Shown here piece after piece: positions 4,642 to 60,336 of a stretch of DNA of 64,000 nucleotides. Source of the stretch: Demequina muriae (GTDB taxonomy: Bacteria > Actinomycetota > Actinomycetes > Actinomycetales > Demequinaceae); the NCBI RefSeq assembly GCF_030418295.1, contig NZ_JAUHQA010000001.1:2232001-2296000 (forward strand), given 5' to 3'. The notes beneath the pieces were generated by a model. That model was not told where the DNA came from, did not search any database, and was given only the letters and a program-made list of their open reading frames with translations. The number at the start of each line of letters is the position of its first letter. Within the stretch, counting starts at the first letter, position 1. Made by a program: the position numbers and the translations under genes.

Positions 4642-5757
4642 GTGGAGGCCACGCGAGAGATCATCGCGCAGTCCCGTCGCATCATCGTCAAGATCGGTTC
4701 GTCCTCGCTCGCGGGCGCGGATGGCCGGTTGAGCGAACAGTCCGTCACGCGCCTGGCCGATGTGCTGGCAGGGGTGCGCGCCGCCGGCCGCCAAGTCATC
4801 CTGGTGACGTCGGGCGCGATCGCCGCCGGCGTGGGTCCGATGGGGCTGCCCGCCCGTCCCCGAGACCTGGCGACTGCTCAGGCCACCGCGTCGGTGGGAC
4901 AGGGGGCGCTGGTCGCTGCGTACTCCGCGGCCTTCGCCCGGCACGGACTCACGGTCGGTCAGGTGCTGCTCACGGCAGACGACATGATGCGTCGTTCGCA
5001 CTACGGCAACGCTCAGCGCGCGTTCAACCGACTGCTCGACCTCGGCGTGCTGCCCATCGTGAACGAGAACGACGCGGTGGCGACGGACGAGATCAGATTC
5101 GGCGACAACGACAGGCTCGCTGCCCTCGTCGCGACGGTCGCCCATGCCGATGCGCTCGTGCTGCTCACGGATGTGGACGGCCTGTACACGGCCGCGCCCG
5201 GGACCCCCGGGTCCGAGCGCATCGACGAGGTGCACGGCCCGGAGGACCTCGCGGGCATCGACGTGTCGCGGCGCGGCTCTGCGCTGGGCACGGGCGGGAT
5301 GATCACCAAGCTCGAGGCTGCCTCGATCGCCACGACGTCCGGCATCGCGGTCGTGCTGGCCAGTGCGGCCGATGCGGCATCGGCTGTGGCGGGCGACGCG
5401 GTCGGGACGCTCTTCCACCCCACGGGCAAGCGCGACACCACCCGGCTGCAGTGGCTCGCCCACGCGGCGCGCACGCGGGGCGCGATCATGGTCGACGACG
5501 GCGCGGTGCGCGCGTTGCAGGGGCGGCGCGCCTCGCTGCTCGCTGCGGGGGTCACCGAGATCCGCGGGTCCTTCGAGGCGGGGGAGCCCGTGGACCTGAT
5601 TGGGCCTGACGGCGCCATCGTCGCGCGCGGATTCGCGGGGTTCTCTGCTGCCGAGGCCGAGCAGATGCGCGGACTCAGCACCGACGCGTTGGGCGAGACG
5701 CTCGGGGAAGGCTACGCCCGAGAGCTCATCCACATCGACGACCTGGTCGTCATGTAG
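4642..5757 (+). CDS. proB: Glutamate 5-kinase
   Basis: First step of proline synthesis: phosphorylates glutamate to gamma-glutamyl phosphate. An amino-acid-kinase domain (VKIGSSSL near the N-terminus, [15 protein letters not shown] and FGDND) is followed by a C-terminal PUA domain from about residue 275. I place the start at GTG 4642, preceded by AAGGAGG at 4631-4637 (spacing 4), giving 371 residues, the family length. ATG 4618 is an in-frame alternative without a Shine-Dalgarno. The open frame extends further upstream but that part lies inside obgE. proA follows after 62 bp. Confidence 0.95.
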
Positions 5758-11835: not shown

Positions 11836-12921
11836 TCACCGTCGCAGAGGCACCTTGACGTCTCCGCCTCCCTCGTGGGTGATTCTGTCTCCCATCTGCG
11901 CGAACACTGGTGCGCTCACGAATCCGCCTGCGAAGAGAGCCTGCCCCTGAGTGAACGTCTGCGCCCGCCGAATGTGGTCTTCTGGCGCGAACCCGAACAC
12001 GGCGGTGAGTTCGGCAAGGTCGCGCGGGGCATTCACCCGCATCAGGCCGAGGTTGTCGCATTGCGAGAGCACGTTCGGGTGAATCTTGGTCGGTCGCTGG
12101 GTCGACAGGAGCAGCCACAGTCCGAACTTCCGTCCCTCGGCAGCAATCTGAATGATCTGCTCCGTGAGCGCCTTCTCCACCGCCGTGACGGGTGCCGGTG
12201 AGCAGAGGTTGTGTGCCTCGTCGATGACGATGAGGATTGGTCGCCGCTCTTCACGCCGCGACCACAAATGCTCCAGCACCGCGAGCGCGGCGACCTTGGG
12301 TTCTGCCGGGTGCTCGAACCCGCCGACGTCGAGAACCGTCGCGCGGGGACGTTCGTCGATGGTGTCAACGGCCGACGACCTGCCACGGGACCACAGATCC
12401 CACTCCAGGACTTGCAGGTTCTCCATGCGGTTCGCGAGCTGATGCCTCACGGGGTCGTTGCTGTCGCGAAGGAGACGCACCATCGCGGAAGCATCGAAGG
12501 CCTTGGCGTCGACGTCCAAGTGAAGGAGGACGTTGTACTCCTCCGCATCGGTGATGGGGTCGATCTGCAAGACGGCGGCCTTCGAGGCGGGGGAGAGGTC
12601 GAGGTAGCGGACACGCAGCGGATCCCCGGTGACGTGGCTCGAGCGGAGCACGCGTATATCGAGGTCGCTCCACCGGGATGCCAACACCTCCGATGACGGC
12701 GATCGAACCTCACGCAGCCGCACGTAATCCGCGTTGGGGTCGAGGATCAGGAGGGGAAGTTCGGTCTGAAGCAGCAACTGCTCCAAGACCACGCCCAGCG
12801 CATAGGTCTTGCCGCTACCGGATTGGCCACACCAGAACGTGTGCCGATTGAACCTGGTCGCGTCCAGGTGAGCGGGCGTGTCCGGTTCTTCGATGGAAGC
12901 TCCGATGTCAAGGAGAGTCAC
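11836..12921 (-). CDS. HerA/DUF87-type ATPase (P-loop DNA translocase family)
   Basis: 361 residues with Walker A GQSGSGKT near the N-terminus, Walker B ILIVIDEAHN and a sensor/arginine segment LLLSTQRPTKIHP, the arrangement of HerA/FtsK-like hexameric ATPases. I start it at GTG 12921, which has GAAGGGA 6 bp upstream; the open frame reaches 13167 but that extension looks non-coding. No NurA nuclease, SIR2 or DUF4297 partner is adjacent. The gene is alone, opposite in strand to its left neighbours and directly beyond tRNA-Ala. The family serves end resection, plasmid/phage functions and anti-phage defence; the role here is open. Confidence 0.8.
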   Translation of the reverse strand: MTLLDIGASIEEPDTPAHLDATRFNRHTFWCGQSGSGKTYALGVVLEQLLLQTELPLLILDPNADYVRLREVRSPSSEVLASRWSDLDIRVLRSSHVTGDPLRVRYLDLSPASKAAVLQIDPITDAEEYNVLLHLDVDAKAFDASAMVRLLRDSNDPVRHQLANRMENLQVLEWDLWSRGRSSAVDTIDERPRATVLDVGGFEHPAEPKVAALAVLEHLWSRREERRPILIVIDEAHNLCSPAPVTAVEKALTEQIIQIAAEGRKFGLWLLLSTQRPTKIHPNVLSQCDNLGLMRVNAPRDLAELTAVFGFAPEDHIRRAQTFTQGQALFAGGFVSAPVFAQMGDRITHEGGGDVKVPLRR

Positions 12922-13181
12922 GGCAGTCCCTTCGTCCAGCGTACGGAGTCGGCCTACGGAGTCATCATGCACCACCCTCGTCCGCCGGGATGGCTGAACG
13001 CTGGCGCTCGAGCAAGTCATGGAGCGGCGGTCGCTCGCATGGCGAGAGAGCGGCGCTCGGTGATCAGAGCGCAGTCGCACCTGTGAGGCGCGTCGCGATG
13101 CACCGTGACCCACCGACAGGCCATGCTCGGGGGAGAAGCGATCTGATGTATCACCGGGTGTCGTCATCGAGAGGACTTGTC
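12922..13181. other. Divergent intergenic region, HerA gene / DUF1304 gene
   Basis: 260 bp between divergent starts. It must hold both promoters but I see no convincing -35/-10 pair. A 9-bp direct repeat TACGGAGTC occurs at 12942-12950 and 12955-12963, close to the HerA start, and might be a regulator site. Open frames crossing the region look like shadows. Confidence 0.4.
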
Positions 13182-48110: not shown

Positions 48111-48147
48111 CCACGCCGAACCGATAGCGCCCTCCGAGGAGGCACAC

Positions 48148-49458
48148 GTGACCACCTTTGCTCAGCGGGCCGCCGCGATCCTGCCCGGCGGCGTCAACTC
48201 CCCGGTCCGCGCCTGGAACGGCGTCGGGGGAGAGCCGGTGCCGATCGCCTCCGCGCGCGGGGCATGGGTGACCGACGCGAACGGCCGCGAGTACGTCGAC
48301 ATGGTCGGCTCGTGGGGGCCAGCCATCTTGGGGCATGCCCACCCCACCGTGGTGCAGGCAGTCCAGGAGGCCGCAGCACGGGGGCTGTCGTTCGGCGCGA
48401 CCACCGTGCGGGAGGTCGAGCTGGCCGAGGAGATCCGCGCCCGCTACGCCCCGGCCGAGCGCGTCCGACTGGTGTCGACCGGCACCGAAGCGACCATGAC
48501 GGCGATCCGGCTCGCGCGCGGCGCCACCGGACGCGACGTGATCGTGAAGTTCGCGGGCCTCTATCACGGTCACTCGGACTCCCTGCTGGTGGCTGCGGGT
48601 TCGGGCCTCGCGACGGCGGGCGTCCCGGACAGCGCCGGCGTCACCCGGGGGACCGCCGCGGACACGATCGTGCTGCCCTATGGGGATGAGAACGCCCTGA
48701 CCGATGCCTTCGCCGAGCACGGTCCACGCATCGCGGCCGTCATCACCGAGGCCGCTCCGGCGAACATGGGCACCGTCACCCCGCCACTGGGCTTCAACCG
48801 GCTCATCGCGACCCTGTGCCGCAACGAGGGCGCCGTCTTCGTCGTCGACGAGGTGCTGACGGGCTTCCGCGCCGGCCCCGCAGGCTACTGGGGGATCGAG
48901 CGTGATGCCGATCTCGCGACGGGAGTCGATCCGTGGCAGCCCGACCTCGTGACCTTCGGCAAGGTCATCGGCGGCGGCATGCCCGTCGCGGCGTTGGGCG
49001 GACGGGCCGACCTCATGGAGCAGCTCGCGCCGCTCGGTCCCGTGTACCAGGCGGGCACGCTGTCCGGGAACCCCGTGGCCGTCGCCGCCGGGCTCGCGAC
49101 CATGCGCCTGCTCACCGACGACGTGTACGCGGGGCTGTCGCGAACGGCCGATGCGCTGGCCACCGGTGTCAGTGACATTCTCACCGAGGCGGGCGTCCGT
49201 CACGCGGTGGGCCGGGCGGGCACGCTGTTCTCGGTGTTCCTGGGCCTGGCGCAGGCTCCGGTGACCTTCGAGCAGGCGGCCGCGCAGGACACGGCGGCCT
49301 TCGGTCGGCTGTTCCACGCGCTCCACGAATCGGGCGTGCACCTGCCGCCGAGCGCCTTCGAGACTTGGTTCGTGTCGCATCAGCACGGCCACGTCGAGAT
49401 CGAGCACGTGCTCGACGCCGTGCGCGCGTGGGCCAACTCGGAGACTGCTCACCCCTGA
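48148..49458 (+). CDS. hemL: Glutamate-1-semialdehyde 2,1-aminomutase
   Basis: Makes 5-aminolevulinate by the C5 pathway; PLP enzyme of 436 residues. PGGVNSPVRAW, STGTEATMTAIRLAR, KFAGLYHGHSD, FVVDEVLTGFRAG and the PLP lysine in LVTFGKVIGGGMPV. GTG 48148 has GAGGAGG 5 bp upstream. hemA (glutamyl-tRNA reductase) is not in this window. Followed by the hairpin array. Confidence 0.97.
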   Translation: MTTFAQRAAAILPGGVNSPVRAWNGVGGEPVPIASARGAWVTDANGREYVDMVGSWGPAILGHAHPTVVQAVQEAAARGLSFGATTVREVELAEEIRARYAPAERVRLVSTGTEATMTAIRLARGATGRDVIVKFAGLYHGHSDSLLVAAGSGLATAGVPDSAGVTRGTAADTIVLPYGDENALTDAFAEHGPRIAAVITEAAPANMGTVTPPLGFNRLIATLCRNEGAVFVVDEVLTGFRAGPAGYWGIERDADLATGVDPWQPDLVTFGKVIGGGMPVAALGGRADLMEQLAPLGPVYQAGTLSGNPVAVAAGLATMRLLTDDVYAGLSRTADALATGVSDILTEAGVRHAVGRAGTLFSVFLGLAQAPVTFEQAAAQDTAAFGRLFHALHESGVHLPPSAFETWFVSHQHGHVEIEHVLDAVRAWANSETAHP

Positions 49459-49472
49459 CCCTGCGCCTCAGC

Positions 49473-49517
49473 GGGACATGAGTGCGAGATCCAGGCCCCA
49501 TCCTGCACTCATGTCCC
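49473..49517. repeat. Hairpin 1 of intergenic array
   Basis: GGGACATGAGTGC (49473-49485) and its perfect reverse complement GCACTCATGTCCC (49505-49517), 13-bp arms, 19-nt loop. Starts 15 bp after the hemL stop, so it may also end that transcript. Confidence 0.9.
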
Positions 49518-49550
49518 ACCACGGCGCAGCGGTCTCCCGGCCCCACTCGC

Positions 49551-49603
49551 TAGCAGTGCACCAGCGGACGTTTCGCCCGGAAACGTGCGCTCATGCACTG
49601 CTA
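49551..49603. repeat. Hairpin 2 of intergenic array
   Basis: Outer arms TAGCAGTGCA (49551-49560) and TGCACTGCTA (49594-49603); a symmetric 3x3 internal loop (CCA/TCA); inner arms GCGGACGTTTC and GAAACGTGCGC with one mismatch; loop GCCCG. A 53-nt near-perfect hairpin with about 20 base pairs. Confidence 0.92.
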
Positions 49604-49648
49604 AGGCGCGCGCGTGGGCGGCGAAGGAGCGCTGACTCTGCGCGCCAG

Positions 49649-49695
49649 CAGTCATTGAGTGCCGGTTTCACGCGACTTTCGGCACTCATCGACTG
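49649..49695. repeat. Hairpin 3 of intergenic array
   Basis: CAGTCATTGAGTGCCG (49649-49664) pairs with CGGCACTCATCGACTG (49680-49695) with two adjacent mismatches in the middle; 15-nt loop. Shares the GAGTGC/GCACTCA element with hairpin 1. Confidence 0.9.
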
Positions 49696-49713
49696 CCAGG
49701 GCGCATGAAGCCC

Positions 49714-49766
49714 GCGAGAATTCACCTCACAGCGGCCACCCCTGTGAGGTGAGCAAGAGTTCTCGC
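49714..49766. repeat. Hairpin 4 of intergenic array
   Basis: Inner arms TCACCTCACAG (49722-49732) and CTGTGAGGTGA (49742-49752), 11 bp perfect; outer arms GCGAGAA (49714-49720) and TTCTCGC (49760-49766) separated from the inner stem by an asymmetric 1x7 loop. Different arm sequence from the other three. Confidence 0.9.
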
Positions 49767-49901
49767 CCCTTTCACATGGCGTGGAGCCGATAGAAACATC
49801 CCCTCCCTAGCGTGAGACGTGTCCGATGGAGCGCTGTGTCAGCGCCCCGCCGATTGCCTGGCGCGGACGTCACTCGCAGCATCGCACCCTGGGGAGGGTT
49901 C
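49767..49901 (+). promoter_or_regulatory. narK upstream region
   Basis: 135 bp between the hairpin array and narK. It must hold the promoter of the nitrate operon unless that lies in the array. I see only weak boxes: TTCACA (49771-49776) and TAGCGT (49808-49813), and a lone GAAAC at 49793-49797 that could be half of a GlnR site but lacks a proper GTnAC partner. The Shine-Dalgarno GGGGAGGG is at 49891-49898. Confidence 0.35.
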
Positions 49902-51302
49902 ATGACGATTCAAGACAAGACCGGCACGGCAGAGGTCGAGCCAGGCGTGGTCGGCCGTGGCCGATGGATCGAGCACTGGACGCCGGAGGACGAGACGTTC
50001 TGGGAGGCCAAGGGCAAGGCCATCGCCTTCCGCAACCTGATCTTCTCGATCGTGGCGGAGCACATCGGCTTCTCAGTGTGGCTGCTGTGGTCGATCGTCG
50101 TGGTGAAGATGTACGGCACGTTCGACGAGTCGGGCGCGCTGGTGGCCGCCGGGTCGAACGGGTGGGCGCTCACGGCGAGCCAAGGACTGACGCTGCTGGC
50201 GGTCGCCTCCGGAGTGGGCGCCTTCCTGCGCATCCCGTACACGTTCGCCGTGCCGATCTTCGGCGGGCGCAACTGGACCGTCGTCTCCGCACTGCTACTG
50301 CTCGTGCCCACTCTGGGCCTCGCGTGGGTCGTAGGCCGGCCGGACACCTCGTTCGGCGTGCTCGTCGCGATCGCCGCCACCGCAGGCTTCGGAGGCGGAA
50401 ACTTCGCCTCGTCGATGGCGAACATCACCTTCTTCTACCCGGACAAGCAGAAGGGCTGGGCACTGGGCCTCAACGCCGCGGGCGGCAACATCGGCGTCGC
50501 CGTGGCGCAGAAGCTGGTGCCGTTCGTGATCGGAATCGGCGGTGTCGGCCTCGCCGCCGCGGGCCTGGTGTACGTCCCTCTCGCCCTCGCCGCCGCGGTG
50601 CTGGCGTTCCTGTTCATGGACAACCTGCGCGAGGCGAAGGCGGATCCCAAGCCGACGGCGCGCTCTCTGCGTCACGGTCACACGTGGCTGATGTCGTTCC
50701 TCTACATCGGCACCTTCGGCTCGTTCATCGGCTACTCCGCGGCCTTCCCGACGCTCCTGTCGGTGGTCTTCGAGCGCACCGACATCGCTCTCGCCTGGGG
50801 CTTCATCGGCGCGTTGGTGGGGTCCCTGGCGCGTCCGTACGGTGGCAAGCTCGCAGACCGGTTCGGCGGCTCGATCGTGACGATCATCGCCTTCATCGCT
50901 ATGGCGGCTGCGGGATATGCGGCGGTCGTGGGAGTGCAGCAGAAGAGCCTGGGGATGTTCTTCGCCAGCTTCATCGCACTGTTCGCCCTCACCGGCATCG
51001 GCAACGGCTCGACGTACCGCATGATCCCGTCGATCTTCAACCGCCTGCGTGACCGCCTGGGCGATGGCTCGGAGGCGTCGGTGCTCGACTTCAAGCGGCA
51101 GAGTGCCGGAGCGGTGGGCATCATCTCGTCGATCGGCGCCTTCGGCGGCTTCGCGATCCCGTTCGTCTACATGTGGTCCCGCGAGACCTTCGACGGCTCC
51201 ATCGTTCCCGCGCTGCAGATCTACGTGGTCGTGTTCCTGGTGATGGCGGCGCTGACGTGGGCCTTCTACCTGCGCAAGGGCTCACCGATGGCGAACGTCT
51301 GA
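49902..51302 (+). CDS. narK: Nitrate/nitrite MFS transporter
   Basis: 466 residues, 12 spans; GFGGGNFASSMANITFFYPDKQKGWALG, the nitrate-signature helix (seen here as GGGNFASSMANI and KGWALGLNAAGGNIG), and GSFIGYSAAFPTLL identify NarK. Start ATG 49902 by the Shine-Dalgarno and family length; the frame runs to 49812. First gene of the nitrate assimilation operon; the reductase begins 2 bp later. Confidence 0.95.
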   Translation: MTIQDKTGTAEVEPGVVGRGRWIEHWTPEDETFWEAKGKAIAFRNLIFSIVAEHIGFSVWLLWSIVVVKMYGTFDESGALVAAGSNGWALTASQGLTLLAVASGVGAFLRIPYTFAVPIFGGRNWTVVSALLLLVPTLGLAWVVGRPDTSFGVLVAIAATAGFGGGNFASSMANITFFYPDKQKGWALGLNAAGGNIGVAVAQKLVPFVIGIGGVGLAAAGLVYVPLALAAAVLAFLFMDNLREAKADPKPTARSLRHGHTWLMSFLYIGTFGSFIGYSAAFPTLLSVVFERTDIALAWGFIGALVGSLARPYGGKLADRFGGSIVTIIAFIAMAAAGYAAVVGVQQKSLGMFFASFIALFALTGIGNGSTYRMIPSIFNRLRDRLGDGSEASVLDFKRQSAGAVGIISSIGAFGGFAIPFVYMWSRETFDGSIVPALQIYVVVFLVMAALTWAFYLRKGSPMANV

Positions 51303-51304
51303 TC

Positions 51305-53472
<2,168 letters not shown>

Positions 53473-53476
<4 letters not shown>

Positions 53477-55005: not shown

Positions 55006-57579
55006 ATGACCGATACGCAAAGGATCGTCGTCGTGGGCGGCGGCATGGTTGCGCACCGCTTCACGGAGGCGCTGCGCGCGCGTGACGCCGACGGGCGGTT
55101 CTCCGTCACGGTGCTCGCCGAGGAGCCGAGGGCGCCGTACGACCGGGTCGCGCTCACCACCTACTTCACAGGTCGCCACCCCGAGGACCTCGAACTCGGC
55201 GATCGGGCGCTGTGGGACGACCCCCTGGTGCGGCTCGAGCGCGATGCGCGCGTCGACACGGTGGACCGCGACGCGAAGGTGGTGACGGACCGCCACGGCC
55301 GCGAGCACCCGTACGACCACCTGGTGCTCGCGACGGGCTCGTACGCCTGGACGCCGCCCACCGAAGGCGCCCACCTGCCCGGAGTGTTCGTCTACCGCAC
55401 CATCGACGACGTCGCCGCCCTGCGCACGTACGTCGAGCACCGCGCGCAGGAGCTCGGGCGGCCGGTGCGCGGCGCCGTGATCGGCGGGGGGCTGCTGGGG
55501 CTGGAGGCCGCAGGAGCGCTCCAGGAGCTCGGGGCGACCAGCACCGTGGTGCAGTTCTCGGACCGGCTCATGAACCTGCAGGTGGACGAGGGCGGCGGTC
55601 ACGCGCTGCAGCGGCTCATCGAACGGCTCGGCGTCACTGTGCGCTGCTCGACCAAGACGCAGGCCATCAAGCCCGACCGCGCGGGGCGTGCGGGCCGGCT
55701 GGTGTTCGAGGGAGGCGGCGAGCAGCTGGTCGACGTCGTGATCTTCGCCACCGGCGTGCGACCGCGCGACGAGCTCGCGCGCACCGCGGGACTCGCGATG
55801 GGCGAGCGTGGCGGCGTCGTGGTCGACGACACCTGCCTGACCGATGACCCGGCCGTCAGCGCTATCGGCGAGGTCGCCTGCATCCAGGGCGCGTGCATCG
55901 GACTCATCGCGCCGGGCAACGCGATGGCGGAGATCGCGGTCGACCGGCTCCTCGGCGGCGACTCCACCTTCCCGGGTGCGGACACGGCCGCGAAGCTCAA
56001 GCTGCTGGGCGTCGACGTGGCGTCGTTCGGCGACGCGTTCGCCACCACCCCGGGTGCGCTCGAGCTGGTCTATGCCGATCCCGTCGCGGGCGTCTACAAG
56101 AAGCTCGTGCTGACCGACGACGCACGCACGCTGCTGGGCGGCATCCTGGTGGGCGACGCGTCGGCGTACGCCTCGCTTCGCCCGATGGTGGGATCGGAGC
56201 TCGGGGGCGATCCCGGCGGCTGGCTGCTGCCGGAGGGCGCCGTGGAGCGCCCCAATGTGGAGCTGCCGGACGAGGCGTCCGTGTGCTCGTGCAACAACGT
56301 CACCGCGGGCGCGATCCGCTGCGCCGTGACCGACGAGGGCTGCACCGACATCGCCGGAGTGAAGGCGTGCACCAAGGCGGGGACGTCGTGCGGCTCCTGC
56401 CTGCCGCTCGTGAAGAAGATCGTCGGCGCCGAGCTCGAGAAGTCCGGCATCGAGATCTCGAACGCCTTGTGCGAGCACGTCGACATGTCGCGGGCGCAGC
56501 TCTTCAGCGCCGTCCAGGTGAGCGGTCTGCGCACCTTCTCCGAGATCATCGAGCGGTTCGGGACCGGCCGTGGCTGCGACCTCTGCAAGCCGGTGATCGG
56601 GTCGATCCTCGCGACGCTGTACAACGAGCATGTGCTCGCGGCGGACCGGGCGGCGCTCCAGGACACCAACGACCGCGTGATGGCGAACATGCAGAAGGAC
56701 GGCACCTACTCGGTGGTCCCGCGCGTGCCGGGCGGCGAGATCCTGCCCGAGCACCTGATCCTGCTCGGCGAGATCGCCAAGGACTACGGGCTCTACACGA
56801 AGATCACCGGCGGCCAGCGGATCGACCTGTTCGGCGCGCGCCTCGAGCAGCTGCCGAGCATCTGGAAGCGCCTGGTCGACGCGGGCATGGAATCCGGCCA
56901 CGCCTACGGCAAGTCCCTGCGCACGGTGAAATCCTGCGTGGGCTCGACCTGGTGCCGGTACGGAGTGCAGGACTCAGTGGGGCTCGCGATCGCCCTCGAG
57001 CTCCGGTACCGCGGACTCCGCAGCCCGCACAAGATCAAGCTGGGCGTGTCCGGCTGTGCACGCGAGTGCGCCGAGGCGCGTGGAAAGGACGTCGGGGTGA
57101 TCGCCACGGACAACGGCTGGAACATCTACGTCGGCGGCAACGGCGGATTCACCCCTCGGCACGCGCAGCTGCTCGTCGAGGACGTCGACGACGATGCGGT
57201 GTTCCGCATCATCGACCGCTACCTGATGCTGTACGTCCGGACCGCGGACCGGCTGCAGCGCACCGCTCCCTGGCAGGAGGAGTACGAGGGCGGCCTCGAC
57301 GCCATCCGGGACGTCGTGGTGAACGATTCGCTCGGCATCTGCGACGACCTCGACGCGCACATGGCGCGCCACATCGACTCCTACGAGGACGAGTGGGCGG
57401 CCGTGCTCAAGGACCCGGAGAGGCTGCGTCAGTTCAGCTCTTTCGTCAACGCGCCCGACGAGCCCGACCCGTCTCTCGCGTACGTGGAGGAGCGCGGCCA
57501 GCGCCGCCCCGCCACGGACTCCGAGCGCGACGGCGGCGCCGTCCTCATCGCCCCCGCAACCCTGGAGGTCCGCTCATGA
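55006..57579 (+). CDS. nirB: Nitrite reductase [NAD(P)H], large subunit
   Basis: Six-electron reduction of nitrite to ammonium in the cytoplasm. 857 residues: FAD/NAD part (VVGGGMVAHRFTEAL; LATGSYAWTPP; GGGLLGLEAAGAL), BFD [2Fe-2S] motifs VCSCNNV and GTSCGSC plus GRGCDLC, then the ferredoxin-like and siroheme/[4Fe-4S] domains with CVGSTWCRYG and SGCARECAEARGKD giving the four cluster cysteines. GAAGGGAAG precedes ATG 55006. 4-bp overlap with nirD. Confidence 0.97.
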   Translation: MTDTQRIVVVGGGMVAHRFTEALRARDADGRFSVTVLAEEPRAPYDRVALTTYFTGRHPEDLELGDRALWDDPLVRLERDARVDTVDRDAKVVTDRHGREHPYDHLVLATGSYAWTPPTEGAHLPGVFVYRTIDDVAALRTYVEHRAQELGRPVRGAVIGGGLLGLEAAGALQELGATSTVVQFSDRLMNLQVDEGGGHALQRLIERLGVTVRCSTKTQAIKPDRAGRAGRLVFEGGGEQLVDVVIFATGVRPRDELARTAGLAMGERGGVVVDDTCLTDDPAVSAIGEVACIQGACIGLIAPGNAMAEIAVDRLLGGDSTFPGADTAAKLKLLGVDVASFGDAFATTPGALELVYADPVAGVYKKLVLTDDARTLLGGILVGDASAYASLRPMVGSELGGDPGGWLLPEGAVERPNVELPDEASVCSCNNVTAGAIRCAVTDEGCTDIAGVKACTKAGTSCGSCLPLVKKIVGAELEKSGIEISNALCEHVDMSRAQLFSAVQVSGLRTFSEIIERFGTGRGCDLCKPVIGSILATLYNEHVLAADRAALQDTNDRVMANMQKDGTYSVVPRVPGGEILPEHLILLGEIAKDYGLYTKITGGQRIDLFGARLEQLPSIWKRLVDAGMESGHAYGKSLRTVKSCVGSTWCRYGVQDSVGLAIALELRYRGLRSPHKIKLGVSGCARECAEARGKDVGVIATDNGWNIYVGGNGGFTPRHAQLLVEDVDDDAVFRIIDRYLMLYVRTADRLQRTAPWQEEYEGGLDAIRDVVVNDSLGICDDLDAHMARHIDSYEDEWAAVLKDPERLRQFSSFVNAPDEPDPSLAYVEERGQRRPATDSERDGGAVLIAPATLEVRS

Positions 57580-57995: not shown

Positions 57996-59212
57996 CCGCA
58001 CTCTTCGGACTCGATCTCAAGGACAAGCCGATCCTGATCGTGGGCGGTGGCTCCGTCGCGTCCCGGCGCGTGCGGCGGTTCGTCGCCGAGGGCGCGCGCG
58101 TCACGGTCGTCGCCCCGCACATCTCAGACGACATCGAGCGGCATGCGGGCCACGGCGACATCGTCGTGCACCGGCGCGGCGTCGCTCCCCAGGATCTCGA
58201 CGGCGCGTGGTTCGTGCTCGCCGCGACTGACGACCCGGTCCTCAACGACGCCGTCGCGCAATGGGCGCACGAGCGCCAGATCTGGTGCATCGACGCCTCC
58301 GACGCGTCCAAGGGCACGGCTCGCCAGGCGGCCATGTCGAAGCACGGCGACCTCGGCGTCGGAGTGATCTCCCTCGGCGCTCCCGACCCCGGGCGGATCC
58401 GCGCGGTGCGCGACGCCGTCGCCGCGCATCTGGACGGCGGCGAGGTCGATCTGCGCCGCCGCCGGCCGGGTTCCGGCCGGGTCATCCTGGTCGGTTCCGG
58501 CCCCGGCGACCCTGGCCTCATCACCGTGCGTGGACGGCAGGCGCTGTCAGAGGCCGACGTCGTGGTCACCGACCGCCTCGGCACCGCCGAGCTGCTGGTC
58601 ACCGTGCCCTACGACGTCGACGTGGTGAATGTGGGCAAGTCCCCTGACCGTCACCCGGTGCCACAGCGCGAGATCAACAGCCTGCTGGTGGGCCGGGCAC
58701 TCGAAGGCAAGACGGTGGTGCGTCTCAAGGGCGGCGATCCGTACCTGTTCGGCCGCGGGGGTGAGGAGGTCCACGCCTGCATCAAGGCCGGGGTGGACGT
58801 CGAGGTGGTGCCCGGGATCACCTCGGCCTTCGCGGTGCCCGCTCGCGCGGGAATCCCCGTGACGCAGCGCGGCGTCTCCACGTCCGTGCTGGTCACCACG
58901 GGTCACGCCGGCGCCGATCCGGCCTCGATCGCGGCGATGGCGGCCGGCGCCACTGTCGTGATCCTCATGGGGGTGACCGCGCTCCCTGGCATCGTCGACG
59001 CCGCCATCGCCGGGGGGTGCGATCCCGAGACTCCGGTGGCAATCGTCGAGAACGGCACCACCGTCCACGAGCGGGTCACCCACGGCGTCATGGCAGATAT
59101 CGTTCGTCGTGCGGACGAAACGGACGTGAAACCTCCAGCCATTATCGTCGTGGGACAGGTGAGTCAGCCCGGACTCTTGGCGAGTGCCGTGGCAGCGACG
59201 CCAGAGCTGTGA
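57992..59212 (+). CDS. cysG: Siroheme synthase: precorrin-2 dehydrogenase + uroporphyrinogen-III methyltransferase
   Basis: 406 residues. N-terminal half (1-~150) is the NAD-dependent precorrin-2 dehydrogenase (ILIVGGGSVASRRVRRFVAEG; LAATDDPVLNDAVAQWA), C-terminal half the SAM-dependent methyltransferase (LVGSGPGDPGLITVRGRQAL; VRLKGGDPYLFGRGGEE; VPGITSAFAVPARAGIPVT). Ferrochelation may be left to the CbiX-like protein downstream. Supplies siroheme for NirB. Confidence 0.94.
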   Translation: MTALFGLDLKDKPILIVGGGSVASRRVRRFVAEGARVTVVAPHISDDIERHAGHGDIVVHRRGVAPQDLDGAWFVLAATDDPVLNDAVAQWAHERQIWCIDASDASKGTARQAAMSKHGDLGVGVISLGAPDPGRIRAVRDAVAAHLDGGEVDLRRRRPGSGRVILVGSGPGDPGLITVRGRQALSEADVVVTDRLGTAELLVTVPYDVDVVNVGKSPDRHPVPQREINSLLVGRALEGKTVVRLKGGDPYLFGRGGEEVHACIKAGVDVEVVPGITSAFAVPARAGIPVTQRGVSTSVLVTTGHAGADPASIAAMAAGATVVILMGVTALPGIVDAAIAGGCDPETPVAIVENGTTVHERVTHGVMADIVRRADETDVKPPAIIVVGQVSQPGLLASAVAATPEL

Positions 59213-60336
59213 ACGGGGGAGCCGTGAGTCACGTGGGGGAGCCGCTCGCAGGGTGCGCGATGGTCATCACCGCGGACCGGCGCAAGCGCGAGTTCGCATC
59301 GGCGCTGGAGCGCCGTGGCGCGACCGTCCACCACGCCCCGGCGCTCAGCACGATCTCGCATCTGGACGACGAGCAGCTCATCGCGGACTCGCGCGCGCTC
59401 ATCGCCGCGCCTCCCGACATCGTGGTGGCGACCACCGGCATCGGATTCCGTGGCTGGATCGAGGCCGCCGATGCTGCCGGCCTTGCGGAGGACCTCCTCG
59501 ACTGCATGCGCGACGCACGGCTCATCGCCCGCGGTCCCAAGGCCAGGGGCGCCATTCAGGCGGCCGGGCTCGAGGCGGACTGGGTCGCCGAGACGGAGAC
59601 CGCGGCGGAGCTTCAGGACTACCTGCTCGCGGAGGGCGTGTCGGGTCTTCGCATCGCGGTCCAGCATCACGGCAATGGATCGGACGGGCTGGATGAGGCG
59701 TTCGAGGAGGCCGGGGCGGACGTCCAGTCACTGCTCATCTACGGCTGGGGACCGCCTCTCGACCCCGCGGCTCACCAGCGCTGGATCGATGGCGCCGCGG
59801 CGGGGCACGCCGACGCGGTGCTGTTCACATCCGCGCCAGGCTCCCACGCCTGGCTGACCGACGTGAGACGGGCGGGACTGTTCGACGCGATCAGCGGCCG
59901 CGTCCACTCGGGAGACCTGCTGCTGGCAGGCGTCGGGCCGGTGACCGCCGCGCCGCTCGAAGGCGCGGGACTGCCCACCTGCTTCCCTGACCGGTGGCGC
60001 CTCGGCGCGCTCGTGCGCGAACTCGTCAAGCACTATGGCGAAGCGACCGAGGCCATCGCGACACCCGATGGGCCGCTGGTGATGCGCGCGACTGCTGCGG
60101 TTCTCGACGGGGAGGTGCTTCCGCTCACGCCGACGGGACTCGAGATCCTGCGCGCGCTCGCGAAGGCGGGAGGCAACGTGCTCACGCGCGAGCAGCTCGG
60201 AGAGCTGCTGCCGGGAGCGCAGGCTGGGCCGCACGCGGTCGAGGCCGCGATCAATCGACTGCGCGAGAACGCGGGCAGCCGCTCGCTGGTGCGCACGGTC
60301 GTCAAGAGGGGCTACGCACTGGGGGTGAGCGCCTGA
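59209..60336 (+). CDS. Uroporphyrinogen-III synthase fused to OmpR-type winged helix
   Basis: 375 residues from GTG 59209 (GTG 59233 with GGGGGAG upstream is an alternative). Residues to ~265 are HemD-like (VITADRRKREFASALERRG; VATTGIGFRGWIEAA; VLFTSAPGSHAWL; LAGVGPVTAAPL); the last ~90 are a trans_reg_C winged helix (LTPTGLEILRALAKAGGNVL; VEAAINRLRENAG; VVKRGYALG). Same architecture as Rv0260c of M. tuberculosis, also near nir genes. It may be an enzyme, a regulator of the nitrate/siroheme genes, or both. Second HemD in the window. Confidence 0.9.
   Translation: MNGGAVSHVGEPLAGCAMVITADRRKREFASALERRGATVHHAPALSTISHLDDEQLIADSRALIAAPPDIVVATTGIGFRGWIEAADAAGLAEDLLDCMRDARLIARGPKARGAIQAAGLEADWVAETETAAELQDYLLAEGVSGLRIAVQHHGNGSDGLDEAFEEAGADVQSLLIYGWGPPLDPAAHQRWIDGAAAGHADAVLFTSAPGSHAWLTDVRRAGLFDAISGRVHSGDLLLAGVGPVTAAPLEGAGLPTCFPDRWRLGALVRELVKHYGEATEAIATPDGPLVMRATAAVLDGEVLPLTPTGLEILRALAKAGGNVLTREQLGELLPGAQAGPHAVEAAINRLRENAGSRSLVRTVVKRGYALGVSA

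Follow-up and report, generated by a model that had tools for sequence, protein, structure and literature searches.

REPs of the E. coli and Pseudomonas types have been interpreted as neutral or selfish miniature mobile elements (PMC3116915, PMC2817692), and CGTC-type REPs have no dedicated transposase (PMC3733652). In M. smegmatis, the motif bound by NnaR, ctCAC(a/c)-N16-(t/g)GTGag, adjoins GlnR boxes (PMC6277429), for which the consensus gTnAc-n6-GaAAc has been given (PMC10704036). Here we describe a gap between hemL and narK in Demequina that is probably a composite boundary separating two transcription units and built from two unrelated components. Both components, a palindrome family and an NnaR-GlnR promoter of narK, are well supported as to identity, and what was first described as an array of four hairpins is a repeat cluster next to a conserved operator rather than a new regulatory RNA.

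The window, meaning the whole 64-kb stretch of DNA that was analyzed, contains the hemL ORF (glutamate-1-semialdehyde aminotransferase, 48145..49458, + strand, TGA stop at 49456-49458, 5' end provisional), which matches Aminotran_3 with an E-value of 1.7e-68, and narK, encoding a nitrate/nitrite MFS transporter (49902..51302, + strand, ATG at 49902, MFS_1). The 443 bp between them (49459-49901) hold no genes. The initial annotation placed four inverted repeats in this gap, and all four were found at those positions: hairpin 1 with GGGACATGAGTGC arms at 49473-49485 and 49505-49517, hairpin 2 with 24-bp arms of 88% identity at 49551-49574 and 49580-49603, hairpin 3 with arms at 49648-49664 and 49680-49696, and hairpin 4 with arms at 49722-49735 and 49739-49752 plus an outer pair at 49714-49723 and 49757-49766. 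Folding z-scores of around -6 to -7 were obtained against 200 dinucleotide shuffles per hairpin (-6.5, -5.9, -6.4, and -7.1 for hairpins 1 to 4, respectively), none of the shuffles matched the real fold of any of the four, and when close inverted repeats in the entire 64 kb are ranked by length, hairpins of this gap take three of the top four places. The gap had also been described as the only gene-free stretch above 300 bp; it is acceptable as the longest, but a 530-bp gap (12652-13181) is called empty as well. On its minus strand, 12652-13181 resembles a sequence encoding the N terminus, with Walker A, of an ATP-binding protein, in atypical codon usage.

A Demequina palindrome family at hairpins 1-3

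Hairpins 1-3 belong to one dispersed, Demequina-specific palindrome superfamily. An element is about 68 bp long and consists of GCGCCCCAG, a variable stem of 15-17 bp, TGAGTGC, a loop, GCACTCA, the complementary stem, and CCAGGGCGC. Three types, all unstranded, are present in the gap and are given here with their scores under a joint covariance model (R3): hairpin 1, a C-type element with the GGGACATGAGTGC core (49462..49529, 4 bp past the hemL stop, 66.0 bits); hairpin 2, a B-type element with AGCAGTGCA..TGCACTGCT (49544..49611, 60.8 bits); and hairpin 3, an A-type element with GCCAGCAGTCAyTGAGTGC..GCACTCAgtGACTGCCAGGGCGC (49639..49706, 71.2 bits). The GAGTGC/GCACTC core that had been reported as common to hairpins 1 and 3 is correct. 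Hairpin 2 had been set apart by its own motif, yet it falls into the same superfamily, while hairpin 4, which had been called unrelated, was indeed found to be no member.

The pattern GAGTGC-N-GCACTC alone was rejected as a detector of the family, with 24 matches compared to 21 in the control; because it barely exceeded the control, similarity searches and covariance models were used instead. When the gap was searched as DNA against its own genome, copies of all three hairpins were retrieved elsewhere, hairpin 3 at five sites, hairpin 2 at about five, and hairpin 1 at two, the relatives of hairpin 2 being 76-84% identical and one relative of hairpin 3 (at C1:1035910) 82% identical with an E-value of 4.5e-11. 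Covariance models were built from hairpin-3 types alone (R1), from a hairpin-2 type (R2), and jointly from 51 elements with hairpin 1 in the training set (R3). R1 detected hairpin 1 with an E-value of 6.7e-7 and a hairpin-2 type with 2e-8. Its matches extended to 24 of 31 Demequina genomes, and among 18 genomes from outside the genus one gave two weak matches. R2 likewise picked up types that it was not built from and matched many Demequina genomes, but none of the 14 genomes searched outside the genus. R3, whose training took in known elements and which shares the tendency of covariance searches to favor any good palindrome, matched 36 of 37 Demequina genomes and only two of 22 other genomes of the order, both borderline, and retrieved 22 distinct sites in the genome that carries the gap, among which the hemL-narK gap is the sole place with three sites within 1 kb. 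In an alignment whose rows were partly found by such palindrome-favoring models, 91.8% of stem cells are paired, compared to 69.2% after shuffling and at most 45% with the partner slid, and the covariation score of the stems is 0.554 compared to 0.177 after shuffling. The stem sequence differs among types, and base pairing is kept by compensatory change. The suggestion of clustered REP/MITE-like elements in the initial annotation was right in kind for hairpins 1-3, albeit for elements lacking the GTAG/CGTC tag and the RAYT of classical REPs. No account of Demequina palindrome families or of actinobacterial REP-like repeats was encountered in the literature searched; as this covered few subscription papers, it is a weak indication of novelty.

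The 10-mer GGCCGATGCG, found near some elements, was considered as a part of the family and rejected, as it is a genome-wide word. It occurs 33 times in the 64-kb window (for example at 5367, 10520, and 18193), always within genes and on both strands, with 3.1 occurrences expected from synonymous-codon shuffles (maximum 8 among 60). There are 62 copies in 159 kb of D. aestuarii and few or none in other Demequina, and 183 kb from other actinobacteria contained no copy. The 10-mer is reminiscent of a dispersed word like HIP1 or of an uptake sequence.

Hairpin 4 and the narK promoter

Hairpin 4 is predicted to be a DNA operator for NnaR. Its core, CTCACA-N16-GGTGAG (49726..49753, unstranded), fits the published NnaR motif, and the larger palindrome at 49722-49752 and the outer pair spanning 49714-49766 are local embellishments around that motif. 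TCAC-N18-GTGA was found in all 28 Demequina narK upstream regions examined, with 0.075 expected by shuffling, and other spacings of TCAC and GTGA in at most nine of the 28. Most Demequina species keep the NnaR half-sites without the long palindrome, which suggests that protein contacts and not a hairpin are conserved. GlnR-like boxes, TTCAC-N17-GAAAC (49771..49797, unstranded), lie 44 bp downstream of the NnaR site, and this spacing is exact in 27 of 28 species, with the same sequence or a close variant; the a- and b-like halves are 22 bp apart as opposed to the canonical 11. About 10 bp past the GlnR-like box, TAnnnT is invariant in the alignment of 28 upstream sequences and provides the narK promoter -10 element (TAGCGT, 49808..49813, + strand), which places hairpin 4 upstream of the narK start site.

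The genes that follow suit this assignment. The first after narK is a nasA-type molybdopterin nitrate reductase (51305..53476, + strand, Molybdopterin and Molydop_binding), followed by assimilation genes that include a nitrite reductase (55006-57579, NIR_SIR), and nnaR itself, the expected binder of hairpin 4, lies among the nitrate genes 9 kb downstream of it (59017..60336, + strand, 5' end provisional, HEM4 E 1.8e-29, Trans_reg_C E 3.3e-9). NnaR and GlnR would bind cooperatively at hairpin 4 and the GlnR-like box, and binding of this kind would activate narK-nasA-nirB in response to nitrate or nitrogen limitation. An earlier proposal of a binding array holds for hairpin 4 alone, as a predicted NnaR operator beside a GlnR-like box. 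The NnaR-GlnR arrangement is thereby extended to Demequina with a fixed geometry, and we would like to note the warning that a repeat with the appearance of a hairpin can be a protein site.

The narK 5'UTR (49820..49901, + strand) has a start inferred from the -10 element, conserved GUCCG/CGGAC ends, and an SD of GGGGAGGG at 49891-49898. It was considered as a riboswitch and rejected: the conserved GUCCG/CGGAC pairs never covary across the alignment, and the leader is no more stable than its shuffles (z +0.44). An anti-SD, in which an upstream CCCTCCC would pair with the SD, was discarded as well, the CCCTCCC lying upstream of the -10. By eye, an inner hairpin of the 5'UTR shows apparent paired variation in about 10 species.

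Position, turnover, and possible roles of hairpins 1-3

We compared the surroundings of 59 distinct sites, 56 of them from the palindrome family and three found by pattern only, using genes from a simple codon-usage caller, so that individual cases may be wrong. Convergent gene pairs flank 29 of the sites, tandem pairs 27, and divergent pairs two, as opposed to 5 convergent, 31 tandem, and 24 divergent pairs at background gaps of at least 100 bp; the depletion of divergent sites has a Fisher p of 9e-7. The neighboring gene ends at these sites include 86 3' ends, mostly 10-45 bp away (the mode). TTT was found in just three of 80 downstream flanks of elements, and no terminator-like site was detected in 49400-49950. 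With the U-tract absent, hairpins 1-3 are not intrinsic terminators in the strict sense. When tandem sites are taken in the sense direction of the gene upstream, their imperfect pairs comprise 22 G-U and 10 A-C (p 0.05), a marginal asymmetry that gives a weak sign of selection at the RNA level.

Read from their position, the function that best fits hairpins 1-3 is that of a predicted bidirectional barrier. Once transcribed from either side, they would form strong RNA hairpins that may halt or slow read-through, either aided by Rho or independently of it, capping the 3' end of hemL mRNA and keeping hemL transcription out of the nitrate operon. The joint explanation that we consider the best, and fairly probable overall, is that REP-like hairpins 1-3 insulate hemL from narK as two-way 3'-end structures and that hairpin 4 is an NnaR operator. 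Several points speak against the barrier: a hairpin that lacks a U-tract is a doubtful intrinsic terminator; most gene ends carry no palindrome element, and a family member follows hemL at just four of 30 Demequina hemL loci, which means that the elements are not essential at this position; and a passive repeat of no benefit to the host would be distributed in much the same way.

In an alternative, hairpins 1-3 would be miniature mobile elements of MITE/REP-like kind, neutral or selfish, that are tolerated past stop codons, insertion elsewhere being harmful, and in this case the hairpin serves mobility as single-stranded DNA and not transcription. We regard this as unlikely, although it does have several observations in its favor: elements of similar types are dispersed, they form arrays, and they are gained or lost between close species. 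In the nearest named relative, D. aestuarii NBRC 106260, whose NarK is 97% identical, a single element of the hairpin-1 type occupies the same place after hemL, which implies a gain of hairpins 2 and 3 here or their loss there. An element at C1:348706 has no counterpart in D. aestuarii, and one element after a purB-like gene corresponds to an array of different hairpins there (L219). Given these differences and the few hemL loci that carry a family member, the cluster after hemL seems to be a lineage-specific repeat that has accumulated locally rather than a conserved part of nitrate control. Against mobility, about 12 of 17 assessable sites of our genome are occupied at the orthologous place in D. 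aestuarii too, so that turnover is slow; no clean target duplication was seen at the one empty site; the distance from 3' ends is tight, at 10-45 bp; and no Y1/RAYT gene (PF01797) was detected in 25 Demequina genomes, while control genomes were positive.

Some gene-content differences were observed around elements. After azlD, D. aestuarii lacks about 1.9 kb with three genes, and the missing segment is exactly that between the palindromes (L233 2237-4189 vs G014 C6:2467873, G014 being D. aestuarii). Between rho and rpmE, a variable segment holds what by eye is a DUF559-like gene, joined in some species by a sigma/anti-sigma pair; palindromes bound each of them (L220 2079-4516, L230 1955-3068, L314 528-1974, L315 583-1729).

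Could the elements be recombination endpoints that delimit movable modules of a gene and its 3' palindrome, much as integron cassettes are organized? We judge this quite improbable. Three loci do differ exactly between elements in close species. At azlD the order here is element-gene-element-marR-ndh-element, and D. aestuarii has one element, the junction falling where the first and the last element have their left edges; at rho-rpmE an element-bounded sigma/anti-sigma pair is present in D. aestuarii and G034 and absent here and in G027; and at C1:685454 D. aestuarii has two extra segments between duplicated hairpins. The elements are also clustered, with five of 21 neighbor distances below 1.5 kb compared to 0.24 expected. 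Nevertheless, the integron integrase model TIGR02249 stayed below cut-off in the 39 genomes searched (25 of them Demequina), and the AAC/GTT of attC was not seen in the element alignment; the Demequina palindromes are not attC. Since azlD-marR-ndh occurs without elements in four other species, D. aestuarii probably deleted the genes between repeats, an event open to any repeat and a better explanation of the azlD change; the gene-content differences between elements are consistent with repeat-mediated deletion. Slightly less credible still is the proposal that the palindromes are sites of an unrecognized system, working by recombination or by single-strand transposition, through which modules of a gene plus a palindrome are added and removed past stop codons, which, if true, would be a cassette system in Actinobacteria without integron integrase or RAYT.

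Lastly, control of the nitrate operon by the four hairpins in the form of a structured leader or small RNA, as initially proposed, is hardly tenable despite their strong folding and their place before narK, as hairpins 1-3 are missing from most Demequina hemL-narK gaps, the conserved -10 is downstream of the hairpins, as is the 5'UTR, which itself lacks unusual stability, hairpin 4 is conserved as spaced half-sites and not as a full palindrome, and Rfam at gathering score returned only a tRNA in the 64-kb window, along with weak chance matches to miRNA models.

Comparison with known systems

The reading we prefer, two-way 3'-end hairpins followed by a predicted NnaR operator, contributes a family of long palindromes that are extragenic and occur across a genus of high-GC actinobacteria, a setting in which terminators are poorly understood. 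Neither the usual REP transposase nor REP tags were detected for the family, which offers a case for studying how palindromes spread without RAYTs and whether covarying hairpins without a U-tract halt transcription from both sides.

The predicted operator is similar to that of M. smegmatis (PMC6277429) in that the same motif lies beside a GlnR box, before nitrate genes and with nnaR nearby. It differs in the 22-bp separation of the GlnR-like halves, and binding has been shown in mycobacteria and reported for Streptomyces, whereas the Demequina site is predicted from sequence. As with REP/BIME sequences, the Demequina elements are dispersed extragenic palindromes present in tens of copies, mainly downstream of tandem or convergent genes and sometimes in arrays (pattern as in PMC3733652). 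In contrast to them, they measure about 68 bp compared to 20-40, are restricted to one genus, and are actinobacterial; in the alignment of 51 sequences, the element ends are CCAG and CCAGGGCGC, with neither GTAG nor CGTC. With neither a REP tag nor a transposase found, we do not file the elements as REPs, though they are REP-like in place and form. The CGTC-tagged REPs (PMC3733652) offer a parallel as another palindrome family without an obvious transposase, but the Demequina elements have no CGTC, come from another phylum, and differ in size and in their core, TGAGTGC. Stable hairpins soon after the stop codon, several in a row, are also a feature of hairpin-cluster terminators (PMC8355165). 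Those hairpins are mostly short, at most 15 nt apart, and form no sequence family, whereas hairpins 1-3 of Demequina are long, 14 and 27 bp apart, related in sequence, and dispersed.
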